A program made the position numbers and the translations under genes. 64,000 bases of DNA from Terriglobales bacterium. GTDB lineage: Bacteria > Acidobacteriota > Terriglobia > Terriglobales > Acidobacteriaceae. Positions 39,312-45,009 of this stretch are shown piece by piece. The notes under the pieces were generated by a model. It made no database searches, was not told the DNA's origin, and worked only from the letters and a program-made list of their open reading frames with translations. The stretch spans positions 1-64,000 of the forward strand of contig JAICSO010000003.1 in the NCBI GenBank assembly GCA_025936825.1, in the 5' to 3' direction. How positions within the stretch are numbered: the stretch's first letter is position 1; each line of letters starts with the position of its first letter.

Positions 39312-39681
39312 AAACCTTCACCACAGAGGACACTCAGGTACACAGAGGAACGCCACAGAGACAGTTCCAAGAAGGAAAGCCAGCAAAAAGATGAGCCGTG
39401 GATATTCCACGACTCTTTCTCATCGTCCAAGATTCGCAAAATACTGCGTCATCCCGAACGGCGGCGTATTGCAGCCGGATGGAGTATCTCGCGTAGGTTA
39501 TACACAGGCGTAAACTGCTCCACACCAGATCCCTCGCCGCGCTGGTGAAGACGCACGGCTTCGGGATCACGCAAGTTCTGTAACGACCGAACCGCAGGGC
39601 TGCCACCTTCGGCATCTCGGGAACCTCTGTTACGCTAATCACCTCTGTGGTTTTACTCTGTGTCCTCTGTGGTGAAGGTTT
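39312..39681. repeat. About 370-base element bounded by a perfect 22-base inverted repeat
   Basis: Bases 39312-39333 and 39660-39681 are exact reverse complements (core CACCACAGAGGACAC). Further degenerate CACAGAGG words lie just inside each end. Nested inside is a second inverted pair at about 39448-39500 and 39525-39580, built on GTCATCCCGAACGGCGG. There is no convincing gene inside. It looks like a MITE-like or paired-array element; no transposase is present. Confidence 0.75.
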
Positions 39682-39686
39682 TTACT

Positions 39687-41465
39687 TTGCGCTGGAATTT
39701 TCGAGAAGCGAACCCCGAACGCGTGCAAGCCCTCCAGCAGGAGATTGCTCCCCTGCTCGGATGCGATCCGGAAGCTCGTTCGACTCTCGCCAAATTGCTT
39801 GTCTTGCGCGGAATCGATTCGTCTGAAAATGCCAGGGCGTTCCTCTCCCCATCCATCGATCAACTCCACTCGCCTTATCTCCTCACTGGCATGAGAGCTG
39901 CCATCGATCGCCTCGACTCGGCCATCGAGCGTAAAGAAGGCATTCTCATCTACGGCGACTACGACGTGGATGGCACGACTGCTGTAGTCATCCTGAAGAC
40001 CGCGATTGCACTCTGTGGTGGCGAAGCGGACTTCCATGTGCCGCACCGAATCCGCGAAGGATACGACTTACGCGGCGATGTGATCGAGCGAGCCGCGGCC
40101 GCAGGCATTCGTCTCGTCATTAGCGTCGACGCTGGCACTCGCGCCTTCGCCGCCGCCGAAAGCGCTCGCCGCGCTGGAATTGATCTCATCATCACCGATC
40201 ATCACCTTCCTGGTCCGGACGGTTTACCACACGCTCTATCCGTCGTGAATCCGAATCAGCCAGGATGCGATTATCCCTGCAAATCGCTCTGCGGGGCCGG
40301 CATCGCGTTCAAGCTCGCGCAAGCACTGCTGGAAAAACGCCTCTCTCACCGCGATCAGAAGGCGCTGCTGCTTTCCTTCATGAAAGTGGCCGCAATCGCG
40401 ACCATCGCCGACTGCGTCCCGCTCCATGGCGAGAACCGCGTCATCGCCAGCCTTGGGCTCAACGCACTGCGCTCCGCTGTAAACCCCGGGCTTAAAGCAT
40501 TGCTTGAGGTCTCTCGACTCGGCGGCAAACCGCTAAGCTCTGGAGAAGTGGCGTTCCGCATTGCACCGCGTATCAACGCTGCCGGACGCATGGACATCGC
40601 GCGAGATGTGATTGATCTCTTCAGCACAAAAGATGGAGTTCGCGCGAAAGAAATAGCGGATCGTCTTGACAAGCTCAACAGCGAGCGCCAGGAAGAGGAA
40701 CGCAGAATTGTCGAGGCCATCGAGAAACGCCTCGCCGAAGATGCTGCCCTGCGCGACGCCTACTGCATGGTGATCGACGGGGACGGCTGGCATCGTGGAG
40801 TCATTGGCATTACCGCAACGCGGGTGGTGGAGCGCTATGGGCGCCCCGCATTGGTGGTGTCACGCGATGGCGAGGAAGCGCACGGCTCCGGCCGCTCCAT
40901 CCCCGCATTTCACCTTCTGCAAGCGTTAGAGTCCTGCCCGCAACTGTTCAGCCGCTTCGGAGGACACGCGCACGCAGTTGGATTCTCTCTGCCCTCGTCG
41001 CAGATCCTGCAACTCCAGCAGAGTCTCGATGCATATGCGCGCTCGCGGCTCACGCTTGACGACTTTACTCCCGTGGTCAACATCGATGCACATGTTCCGA
41101 TTGAAGCTATTACTCCACGATTCATGGAAGCACTAGGCAAATTGGAACCGTTCGGCACGGGCAATCCAGAACCCGTTTTCAGCGCGACTGCGCGTGTGGC
41201 GGAACCTCCGCGCGTCCTTAAAGACAAGCACGTGCAACTGAAACTGTCGCCGGTCGATAGCGATGCAGCAGGATGGAGGAAGTCGCTAAAGTACAAAGCG
41301 ATGGCGTGGCGATTAGCCGAACGAGTCGAACAGGAAAAACTTCTGGCAGGCGACACTTTCGAAGTTGCTTTTACGCTTGACCACAACGACCACCCTGAAT
41401 TCGGTGGGATTGAGTTGTCGTTGAGGGATTTCGAAACGATGAAGGCAGCGACACGTAGCGCATAA
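39687..41465 (+). CDS. recJ: Single-stranded-DNA-specific exonuclease RecJ
   Basis: 5'-3' ssDNA exonuclease for recombination and mismatch repair. DHH motifs: ILIYGDYDVDGTTAVVIL, LIITDHHLPG, NPNQPGCDYPCKSLCGAGIAFKL. DHHA1 part: APRINAAGRMD and FSRFGGHAHAVGFSL. The C-terminal OB-like region is present (LGKLEPFGTGNPEPVF). The start is unclear: no ATG exists; GTG 39660, 39669 and 39672 lie in the repeat arm, and TTG 39687 has GAAGG about 8 bases upstream, itself from the repeat. TTG 39687 begins LRWNFREANPERV, close to where family members start. Confidence 0.93.
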   Translation: MRWNFREANPERVQALQQEIAPLLGCDPEARSTLAKLLVLRGIDSSENARAFLSPSIDQLHSPYLLTGMRAAIDRLDSAIERKEGILIYGDYDVDGTTAVVILKTAIALCGGEADFHVPHRIREGYDLRGDVIERAAAAGIRLVISVDAGTRAFAAAESARRAGIDLIITDHHLPGPDGLPHALSVVNPNQPGCDYPCKSLCGAGIAFKLAQALLEKRLSHRDQKALLLSFMKVAAIATIADCVPLHGENRVIASLGLNALRSAVNPGLKALLEVSRLGGKPLSSGEVAFRIAPRINAAGRMDIARDVIDLFSTKDGVRAKEIADRLDKLNSERQEEERRIVEAIEKRLAEDAALRDAYCMVIDGDGWHRGVIGITATRVVERYGRPALVVSRDGEEAHGSGRSIPAFHLLQALESCPQLFSRFGGHAHAVGFSLPSSQILQLQQSLDAYARSRLTLDDFTPVVNIDAHVPIEAITPRFMEALGKLEPFGTGNPEPVFSATARVAEPPRVLKDKHVQLKLSPVDSDAAGWRKSLKYKAMAWRLAERVEQEKLLAGDTFEVAFTLDHNDHPEFGGIELSLRDFETMKAATRSA

Positions 41466-41469
41466 AAGC

Positions 41470-41650
41470 TTAGTGGTCTGGAGTCATGCCGAAGCCGCGC
41501 GTTTTCACCGGCAAGGCGAGGGATCTGGCGTGGAGTGACGGCGGCCCAAAAACAGAGCAAATTTCTTTTGTTGCCAGTTCGCCCGCGCGAGATCCCTCCG
41601 TCGGCTGAACTCCGCCGCCGTTCGGGATGACGCCGTGATCCCGACGGACT
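41470..41650. repeat. Inverted pair of GTCATCCCGAAC-type repeats
   Basis: The spacer between recJ and the release-factor-like gene carries a degraded arm at about 41478-41535 and an inverted arm at about 41590-41645. The latter is a clear copy of the repeat at 39448-39500 (both contain CCCGAACGGCGGCG on one strand). They end close to the stop codons of both convergent genes. Confidence 0.65.
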
Positions 41651-41657
41651 ACCAGAA

Positions 41658-42830
41658 TCACGAAGCCGCACGCAGCTGATTGGTGTTGCGGTCGGCTCGG
41701 AAACGCAACAACGCCGCGATGTTTCCTACTTTGTCGATCGTTTCGTCTCGCGGAAGCAGCACAAGACCCAAATTGTTTCGCACTGCAATGGGGACTAGTA
41801 CCTCGCAGACGTCCTCCAATTCGCGGGTGGCGTGTCCGCAAACAGGGCAATAGGCCACAAGGTGCGAATCCAGATGCCGGCAATTCGTGCACTCGACCGC
41901 GCGGGCCGAGTAGTCCTGCGACATCAGCAGCGTGTCGATTTCTCCCAACTCCAGAGCGCGCAGCACACGCCGCAAACCGGTAACTCCGCGTCGATGCGCC
42001 CTCGCTTCGTCGAGGGTTTCGCCGAGCAAGGAAGAATGGTGCTTTCGCAAGGTGGCTTGGGCAACGCGCAATGCTTCAGAAACAGCTCTCTCGTCCGGCA
42101 TCGCTGCAATCTCGCCCGAGAAATGTCCCAGCGCCTTCTTCGCGACATCCGGATGAAGTTGCGCCTGCAGTTCAGGCCAGTTCACATCGTTGCAACCAAG
42201 CACGACCGCATCGAACAGCCGCCGCTGATCGCCGTTCTTCAGGAACTCCGCTAACTCGCGGTAGTGCCGCCGTACCTCATCTTCCTTGTGGCGTTGTGCG
42301 TGTCCGCCGTCGTATCCGCCAAAACCATCGCTACGCCCGTGCCGCGGGATCGGATTGGTGATCGACATTTGCTGCCTGATCTCGCCGAACTCCACTTCGA
42401 GAACCCGTGCACTCTGTCTGTCCACTAGCGCCACCCAAAGCTTCGGATACTCCGAAAACAGCGCCGCTAGTGGCTTCAAATGGAATCGCCGGTTTACAAA
42501 CAGTCGTGTCGAGAGTTGCACGGGTGGCACATCGAACTCGCGCCAGAGGTTGCGCTCGGCGCAGCTGAACACGACCTTTGCGAAACCTTCATTGCCATGC
42601 AATGCCTCGGCAATGCGCAAAATTCGTTCCAGGTCCTGGATCGCCTTTGCGCTGCGTCCATTTTGCTGAAGCTCCTGAATTGTCTTCCGCACTAATTCTT
42701 TGGCTTGAATCCCTTCCTCGCGATGTGATTTGTCCTTAGGAACACCGGGCTGAAAGTAGAAGCTGATGGCGTATTCATTCGCACGGCATTCAAAGTCGGC
42801 AAGTTGGCGCAGGTCTTCACGAGTAATCAT
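41658..42830 (-). CDS. Bacterial archaeo-eukaryotic-type release factor homologue (baeRF)
   Basis: A 390-residue cytoplasmic protein with the layout of eRF1/Pelota/Vms1-related bacterial proteins. An N-terminal alpha/beta part leads to PKLWVALVDRQSARVLEVEFGE. A loop and helix at residues 170-195 (FGGYDGGHAQRHKEDEVRRHYREL) sit where eRF1 has its GGQ loop. A third domain follows (LFDAVVLGCNDVNWPELQAQL), and a zinc ribbon (C314, C317, C328, C331) is inserted near the end. It probably acts on ribosome-bound peptidyl-tRNA in termination or rescue (inference). ATG 42830 has GAGG upstream and lies 10 bases after the HPF-sigma gene, so they are an operon. Confidence 0.78.
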   Translation of the reverse strand: MITREDLRQLADFECRANEYAISFYFQPGVPKDKSHREEGIQAKELVRKTIQELQQNGRSAKAIQDLERILRIAEALHGNEGFAKVVFSCAERNLWREFDVPPVQLSTRLFVNRRFHLKPLAALFSEYPKLWVALVDRQSARVLEVEFGEIRQQMSITNPIPRHGRSDGFGGYDGGHAQRHKEDEVRRHYRELAEFLKNGDQRRLFDAVVLGCNDVNWPELQAQLHPDVAKKALGHFSGEIAAMPDERAVSEALRVAQATLRKHHSSLLGETLDEARAHRRGVTGLRRVLRALELGEIDTLLMSQDYSARAVECTNCRHLDSHLVAYCPVCGHATRELEDVCEVLVPIAVRNNLGLVLLPRDETIDKVGNIAALLRFRADRNTNQLRAAS

Positions 42831-42840
42831 GAGCACCTCG

Positions 42841-43884
42841 TTAGCGTGTTGCAGTGGCTTGTAGGAGTTTTCTTTGAAACGGATTGTTGGCAGCGAAGCC
42901 ATTACGCAGTTTCTCGCGGGCGCGTGCAATGGACTGTTCGATCTCGTCGCGATTGCGGTCCGTAATCGCCGCAATTTCTTCGACTGTGAAACCCTCCAGC
43001 GCGTGCAGCACAAAAGTCTCGCGATCCTGTGGCGCAGCCCCATTCAGCGCAACCTGCACCAGCGCGACCATCTCGTCGGTATACGCGACCTCTTCGGGCG
43101 TGGGCGCGCCGCGGTCCGGAATGCCGCTCTCGTTGGTCATGGCTTCGTCCGGTTGATGGAATTGCAGGCGCGCCTCGTCACTGGCGCGCTCTCTGCGACG
43201 CTGGCGCACGCCGCGCAACTCCACTTCTGTATCGGCTTCCGAGCGGCGCGACACAGCGTCATCGATAGCTCGAATAGCCAAGCGGTAAAGCCATGGCTCG
43301 ATTCCGATACGATCCGGCTTGTCGACCTTTTCGTCCAGTGCATCGGCCACAGCTTGATCAACGATCTCTTCCGCATTGATTGAATCAGGCTCGATATCGC
43401 CGGAACTCTCGCGGAAGTACAATTCGCGCTCTACGTAAATTTGCAGCCGCCGGAAATTCGCGTTCACATACGTACGTACATCGTCGGGAGTAGCGGTAAG
43501 CGGAGGAACGGACGCCACCGTTTGCTCGAAAGGCACTTGCGGGACAGGACGGCCCTCCGGCGCCCTGCGGCGTCGCCAGTTGTGGGAATTGCGGAGCAGT
43601 TCTTTGTGCTTGCCGATCTGGGTCAACAAACTCTCGTACGCGGCTTTGATTGCAGTGGCAGCGCTGGAAGCCGATTCCTGTGAAGCCATCTGCCCAGAAG
43701 GCAAACGCAAGTTCAGGGAGACAACGACTCCTTCGCGCGAGGAATTCTGCTCGACCAGTCCTTTCAGGTGCACCAACTCTGGCCGGAATACCTGTAGCCT
43801 TCTTCTTACCTTTTCTGTTCCATGTTGAATTTCGCGGTCTATGTCGGGGGTTCGAGAAAGCTTGTAGCTAAAATGCACATTCAT
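42841..43884 (-). CDS. Fusion of HPF/RaiA ribosome-hibernation domain and sigma-70-like regions
   Basis: A 347-residue protein. Residues 1-100 follow the HPF/RaiA (S30AE) order of strand-helix-strands-helix: MNVHFSYK, DREIQHGTEKVRRRLQVF, GVVVSLNLRLPSGQMASQE, AATAIKAAYESLLTQIGKHK. After a basic/proline linker (101-130), residues ~135-215 resemble sigma region 2 (IEPWLYRLAIRAIDDAVSRR). Residues ~268-328 resemble sigma region 4 (NGAAPQDRETFVLHALEGFTVEEIAAITDRNRDEIEQSIARAREKLRN). HPF domains bind the 30S decoding centre. GAGG upstream supports ATG 43884. It is first gene of an operon with the release-factor homologue. The sigma-like part could be a true ECF factor or a repurposed fold. Confidence 0.8.
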   Translation of the reverse strand: MNVHFSYKLSRTPDIDREIQHGTEKVRRRLQVFRPELVHLKGLVEQNSSREGVVVSLNLRLPSGQMASQESASSAATAIKAAYESLLTQIGKHKELLRNSHNWRRRRAPEGRPVPQVPFEQTVASVPPLTATPDDVRTYVNANFRRLQIYVERELYFRESSGDIEPDSINAEEIVDQAVADALDEKVDKPDRIGIEPWLYRLAIRAIDDAVSRRSEADTEVELRGVRQRRRERASDEARLQFHQPDEAMTNESGIPDRGAPTPEEVAYTDEMVALVQVALNGAAPQDRETFVLHALEGFTVEEIAAITDRNRDEIEQSIARAREKLRNGFAANNPFQRKLLQATATR

Positions 43885-44079
43885 GCTTGCCTCGGATCGG
43901 GAGAAGGTCCCGTGAAGCTTTGCTACACGGCGATTCTACACCCGCTCTTAAACGACGGAACAAAATTCGCGTTCACGCCGGGGCATTCAGGGAATTCCTA
44001 CCCAAAATACTGGTCAATTCCGATCTGAAACTGGCGTCGGGTGAGCAACTTGCGGCCACAAAGGCCTCTCTAAATCCCG

Positions 44080-45009
44080 ATGAACAAGGGTTGCACAAAA
44101 CGAAATGTCATTTTGCGCCTGTCATCTGTGGCAGTCGCTGCTCTGGTGTTGCAAACTGCTTGTGGTGGTGGCGTGCCCCACGGCACCGGTAAGATCCCAG
44201 TGGTGGCGCACGTTTTTGTCCTGGTGGAAGAGAACCATTCGTACGGCAGTGTGATCGGGAACTCCGCCATGCCGTATACGAACAGCTTGGCGCAGAAATA
44301 CGCATTGGCGACGCAGTACTTTGCAGACCGGCACAACTCACTACCAAACTACTTCATGTTGACGGTTGGTGACCTCGTGACCACCAACGATCTCTTCACA
44401 GGCACCGTGTCGCAAGACAACGTTGTGCGGGCCTTGACGTCAGCCGGCAAGAGTTGGAAGGTCTATGCCGAGTCGCTGCCACAGCCGGGGTTCACCGCCG
44501 CGGCGAACGCGCCTTATGCGCGCGACCACAATCCCTTCACCTACTTTTCCGACGTGCTGAACAGTTCCTCGCAAACCGCCAACATTGTTCCCTTTACGCA
44601 GCTTGCAACCGACTTGCAGAATGGAACGCTACCGGATTACGCGATGATAGTGCCGGATCTTTCGAACGACGGACATGACTGCCCCGGGGAAGCTGGAAAT
44701 TGCACGGACACGCAAAAACTGTCGAACATTGACGACTGGGTGAAAAATAACGTCGGGCCGCTCATTAACAGCTCGGCATTTCAGAATTCGGTGCTGATCT
44801 ATACCTGGGATGAAGGCGATGTGAACGACATGGCCAATCAAGGGGGGCACGTCGCGACGATTCTGGTCAGCCCTAAAATACGAGCAGGGCTTCAATCGAA
44901 AACCATGTATCAGCATCAGAGCGCGTTGAAGCTGAGCATGCAGTTGCTGGGTGTGAATGATTTTCCGGGTGCTGCTGCCAGCGCTACGGATATGGCGGAG
45001 TTTTTCTGA
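44080..45009 (+). CDS. Exported phosphoesterase (acid phosphatase/phospholipase C-like)
   Basis: A 309-residue phosphoesterase-family protein. The metal-site start motif HVFVLVEENHSYGSVIGN is followed by PNYFMLTVGD, YARDHNPFTYF, PDYAMIVPDLSNDGHDC and LIYTWDEGD. This matches the family of phosphatidylinositol 3-phosphatase-like and acid phosphatase enzymes. The N-terminus is hydrophobic and ends in LVLQTACGGG, an imperfect lipobox, so it may be a lipoprotein. It stands divergent from the HPF-sigma operon, 195 bases away. Confidence 0.87.
   Translation: MNKGCTKRNVILRLSSVAVAALVLQTACGGGVPHGTGKIPVVAHVFVLVEENHSYGSVIGNSAMPYTNSLAQKYALATQYFADRHNSLPNYFMLTVGDLVTTNDLFTGTVSQDNVVRALTSAGKSWKVYAESLPQPGFTAAANAPYARDHNPFTYFSDVLNSSSQTANIVPFTQLATDLQNGTLPDYAMIVPDLSNDGHDCPGEAGNCTDTQKLSNIDDWVKNNVGPLINSSAFQNSVLIYTWDEGDVNDMANQGGHVATILVSPKIRAGLQSKTMYQHQSALKLSMQLLGVNDFPGAAASATDMAEFF

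Follow-up and report, generated by a model that had tools for sequence, protein, structure and literature searches.

The 64,000-nucleotide stretch analysed here (the window: Terriglobales bacterium, a soil member of the Acidobacteriota, GenBank assembly GCA_025936825.1, contig JAICSO010000003.1, positions 1 to 64,000) encodes on its minus strand a protein that joins a ribosome hibernation domain of the HPF/RaiA type to a half resembling an extracytoplasmic function (ECF) sigma factor, and directly downstream of it a Balon-like release factor homolog of the baeRF group. The HPF–ECF-sigma-like fusion is real, far beyond chance, and we read it as a promoter-blind sigma mimic carried on a hibernation factor rather than a working sigma factor, with the core of RNA polymerase (RNAP), or else an anti-sigma factor, as its most likely partner. 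An original prediction had proposed an operon of an HPF/RaiA–sigma fusion and an eRF1-like protein; both open reading frames (ORFs), their position and strand, the 10-bp spacing between the fusion stop codon and the baeRF ATG, and the GAGG site proper to baeRF could all be read in the sequence, and the two-gene unit is supported. The features of the two genes are as follows (gene coordinates include the stop codon).

42841–43884, minus strand: HPF/RaiA–sigma-like fusion gene, 347 amino acids
43573–43884, minus strand: S30AE (HPF/RaiA) domain, residues 1–104, with the basic QxxKHKxxL helix present
43234–43488, minus strand: sigma2-like three-helix unit, residues 133–217 (helices 133–160, 171–183 and 192–217)
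43090–43179, minus strand: conserved linker, residues 236–265, with an FHQPDE...PE motif, modeled mostly at low confidence
42895–43089, minus strand: sigma4-like unit, residues 266–330, whose recognition helix lacks the usual G-T-V-K-S-R residues
41658–42830, minus strand: baeRF family 10/Balon-like gene, 390 amino acids, with a three-domain aeRF1 fold
41838–41891, minus strand: CxxC...CxxC zinc ribbon of the baeRF C-terminal domain (C314, C317, C328 and C331)

The N-terminal half is assigned to HPF by fold and by family. Pfam S30AE matched residues 12–96 of the window fusion with an E-value of 1.4e-4 and 23.0 bits, 0.7 bits short of the cut-off of 23.7, and 29 of the 31 family members gave an S30AE (PF02482) match at E ≤1 (best 3.3e-9). 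The HPF half of the model (residues 1–102) superimposed on RaiA of P. urativorans from the Balon complex (8rd8_D) with a Z-score of 15.1 and a root-mean-square deviation (rmsd) of 1.4 over 98 residues. A profile search against the PDB matched HPF chains from 4.2e-5 and aligned the basic C-terminal helix (QLxKHKxKL segment) to E. coli HPF, so that the fusion shares with HPF/RaiA/YfiA (S30AE) factors both the N-terminal fold and the basic ribosome-facing helix. The C-terminal dimerisation domain of long HPF (PF16321) had no match in the window fusion at E ≤10. Fused forms of HPF described in print include lHPF with its C-terminal domain and the archaeal HibA with CBS domains, HPF fusions having been searched by CD-search in the same study (PMC13324472); in contrast to these, the second half here is sigma-like, a combination not among the fused forms met in the available text. 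Five other S30AE proteins above the Pfam cut-off are encoded in the genome of the window (G000: C68, C59 with two adjacent, C72 and C8; L032–L036). In a filtered search, own-genome HPF paralogs gave no match to the HPF half of the fusion, and without filters (E 0.003–0.06) they proved too distant for a useful alignment.

The C-terminal half carries significant sigma signals, as the original prediction had suggested, and its ranges for sigma regions 2 (130–215) and 4 (265–330) proved correct. NCBIfam sigma70-ECF (TIGR02937) matched residues 166–328 of the window fusion at 49.4 bits, above the cut-off of 42.9 (E 3.7e-13), and Pfam Sigma70_r4_2 matched residues 284–326 at 1.2e-8; the latter was found in all 31 family members at E ≤1. 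TIGR02937 was also above the cut-off in the Paracoccus homolog and below it in L172 and L028. Region 2 was seen better by fold than by profile, Sigma70_r2 being found in only 5 of the 31 members (E ≤1): the sigma2 part of the model (132–221) matched RpoE (5uxx_C) with Z 8.5 and rmsd 2.6 over 80 residues, and the sigma4 part (268–330) matched SigF (8jzt_C) with Z 8.6 and rmsd 2.4 over 63 residues. Because these Z values are modest, the sigma identity is carried by the sequence profiles, among which the ECF sigma SigG1 (7qh5) was the best match in the search against the PDB (3.7e-13, residues 170–334). Like ECF sigma factors of the SigG1/SigX5 kind, the fusion thus has sigma2, linker and sigma4 in order. 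The AlphaFold2 model, built on a 27-row alignment, reached a mean predicted local distance difference test score (pLDDT) of 74.5 and a predicted template modeling score (pTM) of 0.32, and consists of three confident units with low-confidence linkers between them (pLDDT <50 over residues 219–259). Two PHROGs sigma-factor families matched the window fusion at E ≤0.001. A phage origin was considered and rejected, the Paracoccus homolog having no match in the phage collection at 1e-5 and the baeRF no PHROGs match at E ≤0.001.

To compare the sigma half with genuine sigma factors, 122 fusion frames, most of them from close Acidobacteriota relatives, were set against 13 ECF frames of the phylum (14 were found, and one odd frame of 461 amino acids was removed). 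At the positions that we take to touch the promoter, the recognition helix changes from G92, T92, K85, S85 and R85 (percent) in the ECFs to E59/D25, mixed, R50, mixed and S59 in the fusions; its net charge falls from +4.15 to +1.45, and that of regions 2.3/2.4 from +2.46 to −0.24. In region 2.2, a glutamine present in 7/7 ECFs is replaced by aspartate in 87% of the fusions. Among 37 non-redundant fusions (<60% identical), mean conservation was 0.488 for region 2.2, 0.511 for the linker and 0.548 for region 4.1, beside 0.484 for the HPF half, while region 2.4 was the least conserved segment (0.281) and the recognition helix reached 0.395. The well-conserved segments of the sigma half are those that face partners in sigma factors, so that selection seems to keep a surface of the sigma half and not promoter reading. 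Direct control of transcription as a sigma factor, as originally proposed, is unlikely, because the promoter-contact residues of regions 2.4 and 4.2 are lost; by these and by the HPF domain in front, the fusion differs from ECF sigma factors.

The downstream protein is an eRF1-like factor, as anticipated, matching Pfam baeRF_family10 at 3.6e-25. Its model (17-row alignment) was confident (pLDDT 84, pTM 0.74), and Foldseek placed the Balon Msmeg1130 at ranks 1 and 2 (8v9j_z, TM 0.80/0.86), followed by aRF1, P. urativorans Balon and Rv2629. At the GGQ-loop site, 16 of the 17 aligned rows read [YF][DNE][AG]GH and one YDGSH, with GGQ there in 0/17; one row (L011) has a GGQ elsewhere in its sequence. 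NIKS was found in 0/17 rows and the CxxC...CxxC ribbon in 17/17. The window baeRF therefore resembles the Balon family (Msmeg1130, Rv2629 and P. urativorans Balon) in its three-domain fold, in lacking GGQ and NIKS at the expected sites and in lying beside an HPF gene, whereas it differs from it in sharing only 14–20% identity in structural alignments and in falling far below the cut-offs of three NCBIfam Balon-type equivalog models (61.7 vs 320, 40.4 vs 330 and 36.4 vs 480 bits). These properties support the suggested link to ribosome hibernation; because the protein is Balon-like and its catalytic loop lacks GGQ, the alternative of ribosome rescue is less likely than hibernation.

The association of fusion and baeRF is tight in the family of the window genome and loose elsewhere. 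In a set of 30 loci, baeRF directly followed the fusion in 20 of 29 testable ones (20/25 in the window family and 0/4 in a second family of the order), three of the 20 being cut inside baeRF. Among 80 loci from named genomes, a set overlapping the former, 72 of the 77 testable loci had it downstream of the fusion at a distance of −14 to 84 bp and five had none there, the other three being cut. Within the window family, 21 of the 27 fusion-bearing genomes and 0 of the 10 others had baeRF (Fisher p 2.3e-5, with relatedness ignored). In G001, which is among the six exceptions, the contig ends just inside baeRF. The second family had baeRF in 0 of 14 genomes, and beyond the window family the fusion mostly occurs without it, with G056 as one exception. 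Thus, conservation of the pair among relatives, which the original prediction had put forward as a check, holds in the window family and fails elsewhere, so that it is not the pair as a whole that is conserved. In the window's own group, none of the three conditions that the original prediction had named as refuting it applied. In a related genome, a solo HPF of 122 amino acids close to the HPF half of the fusion lies immediately 5′ of baeRF (L174:1975-3538), which is likely the ancestral form of the pair; as this solo HPF precedes baeRF, and the fusion precedes baeRF in L177, outside the family and at a contig end, we infer that an HPF–Balon unit came first and that a sigma-bearing HPF later took the place of the HPF. 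Balon itself and HPF–baeRF neighborhoods are already published, the latter in PMC6514570 and PMC10901736, and a figure legend of PMC10901736 (Fig. 2c) names "alternative sigma70 factors" within Balon operons; these might be the HPF–sigma fusion. Genes of 390–400 amino acids beside the fusion in L157, L159, L162, L164 and L165 were considered as baeRFs and ruled out, and in L153 and L154 the gene after the fusion was LysM-SLT. The former are aminotransferases (PF00155), lying immediately 3′ of the fusion in five loci of other Acidobacteriota families. In 2 of 17 wider loci the choice of ORF masked the fusion, and a baeRF could likewise be hidden there.

The fusion itself is an old family. Counted where a strong match spanned both halves or ran off the end of a contig, it was present in 41 of 61 near relatives (the window genome counted), comprising 27 of 37 genomes of the window family, 13 of 14 of the second family and 1 of 10 others in the class, two of which (G055 and G059) have an HPF-only relative. 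G049, of the second family, has two fusion copies (C24, L178, and C127). When 297 genomes sampled from the phylum at ≥80% completeness were searched with a profile, at least 19 from nine further families proved to carry it, 18 above 165 bits and one in two pieces; about seven candidates were scored per genome, making this a lower bound. The scan of named genomes gave 121 relatives, of which 80 were kept, all Acidobacteriota/Terriglobia records. Among plasmid records, 26 matched the Paracoccus homolog at 1e-10 or better (23 over ≥80% of its length), with carriers in the alpha-, beta- and gamma-Proteobacteria, and in a midpoint-rooted tree of the 37 non-redundant fusions the three Proteobacterial forms grouped with a support of 0.84. 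Klebsiella records were left out as fusion carriers: 286 plasmid records were counted, and the 36 Klebsiella entries among the 40 matches listed were short sigma4 matches (255–324), 32 of them annotated FecI. One Klebsiella quasipneumoniae plasmid matches residues 1–267 of the Paracoccus homolog and is probably a carrier of orf11, a gene of the transmissible locus of stress tolerance (tLST).

Nine plasmid neighborhoods of fusion homologs were opened. On the Paracoccus, Agrobacterium and Roseomonas plasmids (alpha), the fusion is immediately preceded by an "AAA family ATPase" gene, which we read as ClpK-like, with MarR, FtsH, HdeD and three Hsp20 genes close by; the first two of these loci additionally have rhomboid, ClpP, TrxC and antiporter genes, and a fourth locus, in Methylorubrum, is almost unannotated, with yfdX1 present. 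Two Burkholderiales plasmids (L172 and L173) carry the fusion between Hsp20 genes and GroES-GroEL-DnaK, an island that differs in content from the tLST islands opened, and a third has it near Hsp20 genes with GroEL about 8 kb off. In the tLST islands of Pseudomonas fragi and Enterobacter (L171:8001-9143 and L170:8001-9143), the gene between hdeD (DUF308) and trx is orf11 by the published gene order. No baeRF was annotated around the Proteobacterial relatives opened, both tLST islands included.

As judged from profiles, tLST orf11 is a divergent member of the HPF–sigma fusion family. The two orf11 proteins scored 113.2 and 110.6 bits against the A1 family profile over positions 1–336 and 1–338, and 61.9 and 61.6 bits against an Acidobacteriota-only profile; their linker reads FYQPDD, the tblastn match was 2e-11, and hhalign aligned orf11 with the fusion family over residues 84–330 only (probability 98.0). 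Orf11 is thus homologous to the window fusion over almost its full length, linker motif included, and it differs from it in lacking an annotated baeRF nearby and in Pfam signals that are not significant (S30AE 0.06 in P. fragi only, sigma4 0.022 in Enterobacter only), because of which the homology, that of the HPF part included, rests on the A1 family profile. Of 5,426 complete E. coli genomes, 152 gave a match to orf11, with ≥80% of the query covered in 144, and the gene was annotated as hypothetical in all 20 E. coli entries among the matches listed. The texts of PMC5383660 and PMC8290217 describe it as a hypothetical protein with <30% identity to proteins of known function. One "hypothetical protein" of a locus of heat resistance (LHR) has been detected by mass spectrometry, according to PMC7010813, and may or may not be orf11.

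The region upstream of the fusion gene in the window contains the following short elements, given with the ribosome-binding site of baeRF.

42836–42839, minus strand: GAGG ribosome-binding site of the baeRF gene, read in the sequence
43890–43893, minus strand: GAGG ribosome-binding site of the fusion gene, invariant across 47 aligned loci
43932–43944, minus strand: promoter-like element CGGGTGTAGAATC, 5′ of the fusion gene, conserved in the 47 aligned loci

All 47 aligned loci, which are from Terriglobia, have a GG[T/A]GTAnAAT element 5′ of the fusion gene; this near-invariant CGGGTGTAnAATC-type element is accompanied by no evident conserved −35. A match to CGGGTGTAVAATC occurred once in the genome, at the upstream element of the fusion, and 0 times in the control. 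A leader RNA thermometer was rejected: a hairpin at the ribosome-binding site looked conserved by eye, but RNAalifold gave 0 pairs on the 47 sequences, 12 single folds had z-scores of −0.34 to −1.77, and GAGG pairing was 0.722 vs 0.682 with shuffled upstream sequence (p 0.24, 47 loci). No Rfam family was matched within 41400–44200 at E ≤1. The baeRF start is the ATG at 42830, common to relatives, the mechanically called ORF beginning further upstream at 43043. The two genes are flanked by plus-strand ORFs at 39660–41465 (recJ-like in our reading) and 44080–45009.

Combining these results, our best explanation, which we favor tentatively and at somewhat less than an even chance, is a hibernation factor bearing an ECF-derived arm that grips a partner, the likeliest being the RNAP core. 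The fusion would be a stress-type ribosome hibernation factor, a role suggested by its Hsp20, AAA/ClpK, FtsH, HdeD or GroESL-DnaK neighbors. Hibernation-type ribosome binding is probable, given the fold match of the HPF half to ribosome-bound RaiA and that of the downstream protein to Balon structures solved on ribosomes; the fold and the retained basic helix would place the HPF domain inside the channel that mRNA and tRNA occupy on an idle 30S subunit. The arm, judging from its loss of promoter-contact residues, would no longer read promoters, and its conserved segments suggest that it may still offer the partner-gripping surfaces of a sigma factor. Through the RNAP core as likeliest partner, idle ribosomes and idle polymerase could be held off together under stress, and in the Terriglobales group the fusion would be made together with a Balon-like protein plugging the A site of the same ribosome. 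A universal partner fits, because the opened neighborhoods show no one partner gene accompanying the fusion from phylum to phylum. For the arm itself, the RNAP core is the leading candidate without commanding a majority of our confidence; something else or nothing (self, baeRF, the ribosome, a chaperone, or a leftover) is possible though doubtful; an anti-sigma factor, the next named candidate, is unlikely, and promoter DNA, bound by a working sigma, is improbable. The more specific picture of a co-hibernation factor, whose HPF half would lock idle ribosomes while the promoter-blind sigma half would cap the RNAP core, and which would have spread with mobile heat-resistance islands and correspond to orf11 of the E. 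coli tLST, is likewise doubtful.

Several points weigh against this reading. The Z values of the sigma parts lie within the range where the structure tool warns of a merely common helical arrangement, and the low pTM of the fusion means that relative domain placement is not given by the model. The region 2.2 glutamine, which is aspartate in the fusions, is important for core binding in sigma factors. The ECF control is small, with 7–8 of the 13 frames covering region 2, and was retrieved by the fusion's own profile. Regions 2.4 and 4.2 of genuine sigma factors also vary with specificity; for this reason, and having no per-region baseline, the contrast in conservation alone is no proof of lost promoter reading. 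The frequent matches to the Pfam PhyR_sigma-like family, described below, favor an anti-sigma partner as much as polymerase binding. According to PMC8407380, seven of the 13 genes of the tLST are required by E. coli to survive heat or chlorine, orf11 not being one of them, and E. coli without orf11 was normal in acute heat and chlorine killing, with lipid oxidation unchanged; in LHR2, orf11 is reported as broken (PMC5383660). A dispensable or broken orf11 fits a hibernation role limited to long starvation, and equally fits plain dispensability.

Among the rivals, the one that survives best, although we consider it rather unlikely, sees in the sigma fold nothing but a helical module for protein binding or dimerisation, taken up in place of the long HPF C-terminal domain, for example to dimerise ribosomes or to hold baeRF or chaperones. 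Long HPF likewise has a C-terminal binding domain; the sigma signals are weakest in tLST orf11; and the fusion stands beside baeRF in one group and beside chaperones in another. However, the conserved segments are the partner-facing ones of sigma factors, the linker motif included, which would be needless for a mere helical spacer. A less likely rival still is a PhyR-like mimic, in which the sigma half would bind an anti-sigma factor and liberate a stress sigma, either while ribosomes stand idle or upon release by the HPF half. The sigma-like domain of PhyR is a sigma mimic that does not read promoters, so lost promoter contacts would be as expected; Pfam PhyR_sigma-like was matched in 29 of the 31 members (E ≤1; window fusion 7.6e-7), the PhyR structure 3t0y was matched with Z 8.1, and PhyR chains appeared in the profile search at 2.1e-6 to 3.7e-6. 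Yet that Z is no higher than those of ordinary sigma matches, no receiver domain was detected in the window fusion at E ≤10 and none figures in the 25 families displayed for the 31 members, HPF standing in its place, and no anti-sigma gene was annotated or recognised in the opened neighborhoods, only ten neighbors having been profile-scanned at the Acidobacteriota loci. The idea of the original prediction, a working ECF sigma that the HPF half would release for transcription upon sensing idle ribosomes, we regard as improbable: it would account for the complete sigma2–linker–sigma4 layout and for TIGR02937 exceeding its cut-off in the window and Paracoccus proteins, but the promoter-contact residues and their positive charge are lost, region 2.4 is the least conserved of the compared segments, and Enterobacter orf11 has no NCBIfam family at E ≤0.01. 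Least of all do we expect an ordinary hibernation pair made up of Balon and an HPF variant whose sigma half is a neutral leftover. The published HPF–baeRF neighborhoods and the solo HPF of L174 would suit it, but 12 Acidobacteriota families and three Proteobacteria classes have retained the sigma half, some of its segments match the HPF half in conservation, and the two halves form one open frame in 15 of 17 wider loci, an overlapping ORF having masked the fusion in the other two.

No description of the HPF–sigma architecture, of its lost promoter contacts or of the identity of orf11 was found among the open-licence papers searched (titles, beginnings of abstracts and passages). If the preferred reading of a promoter-blind sigma mimic on a hibernation factor is true, plasmid entries named "sigma-70 family RNA polymerase sigma factor", "RNA polymerase subunit sigma-28" or "flagellar biosynthesis protein FliA" would need correcting, and a tLST gene of unexplained role in food- and hospital-related bacteria would gain a testable function. 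The question could be addressed at once, as PMC8407380 describes an E. coli K-12 strain that carries the tLST either intact or lacking orf11. Ribosome hibernation and the silencing of transcription could then be joined in one molecule.

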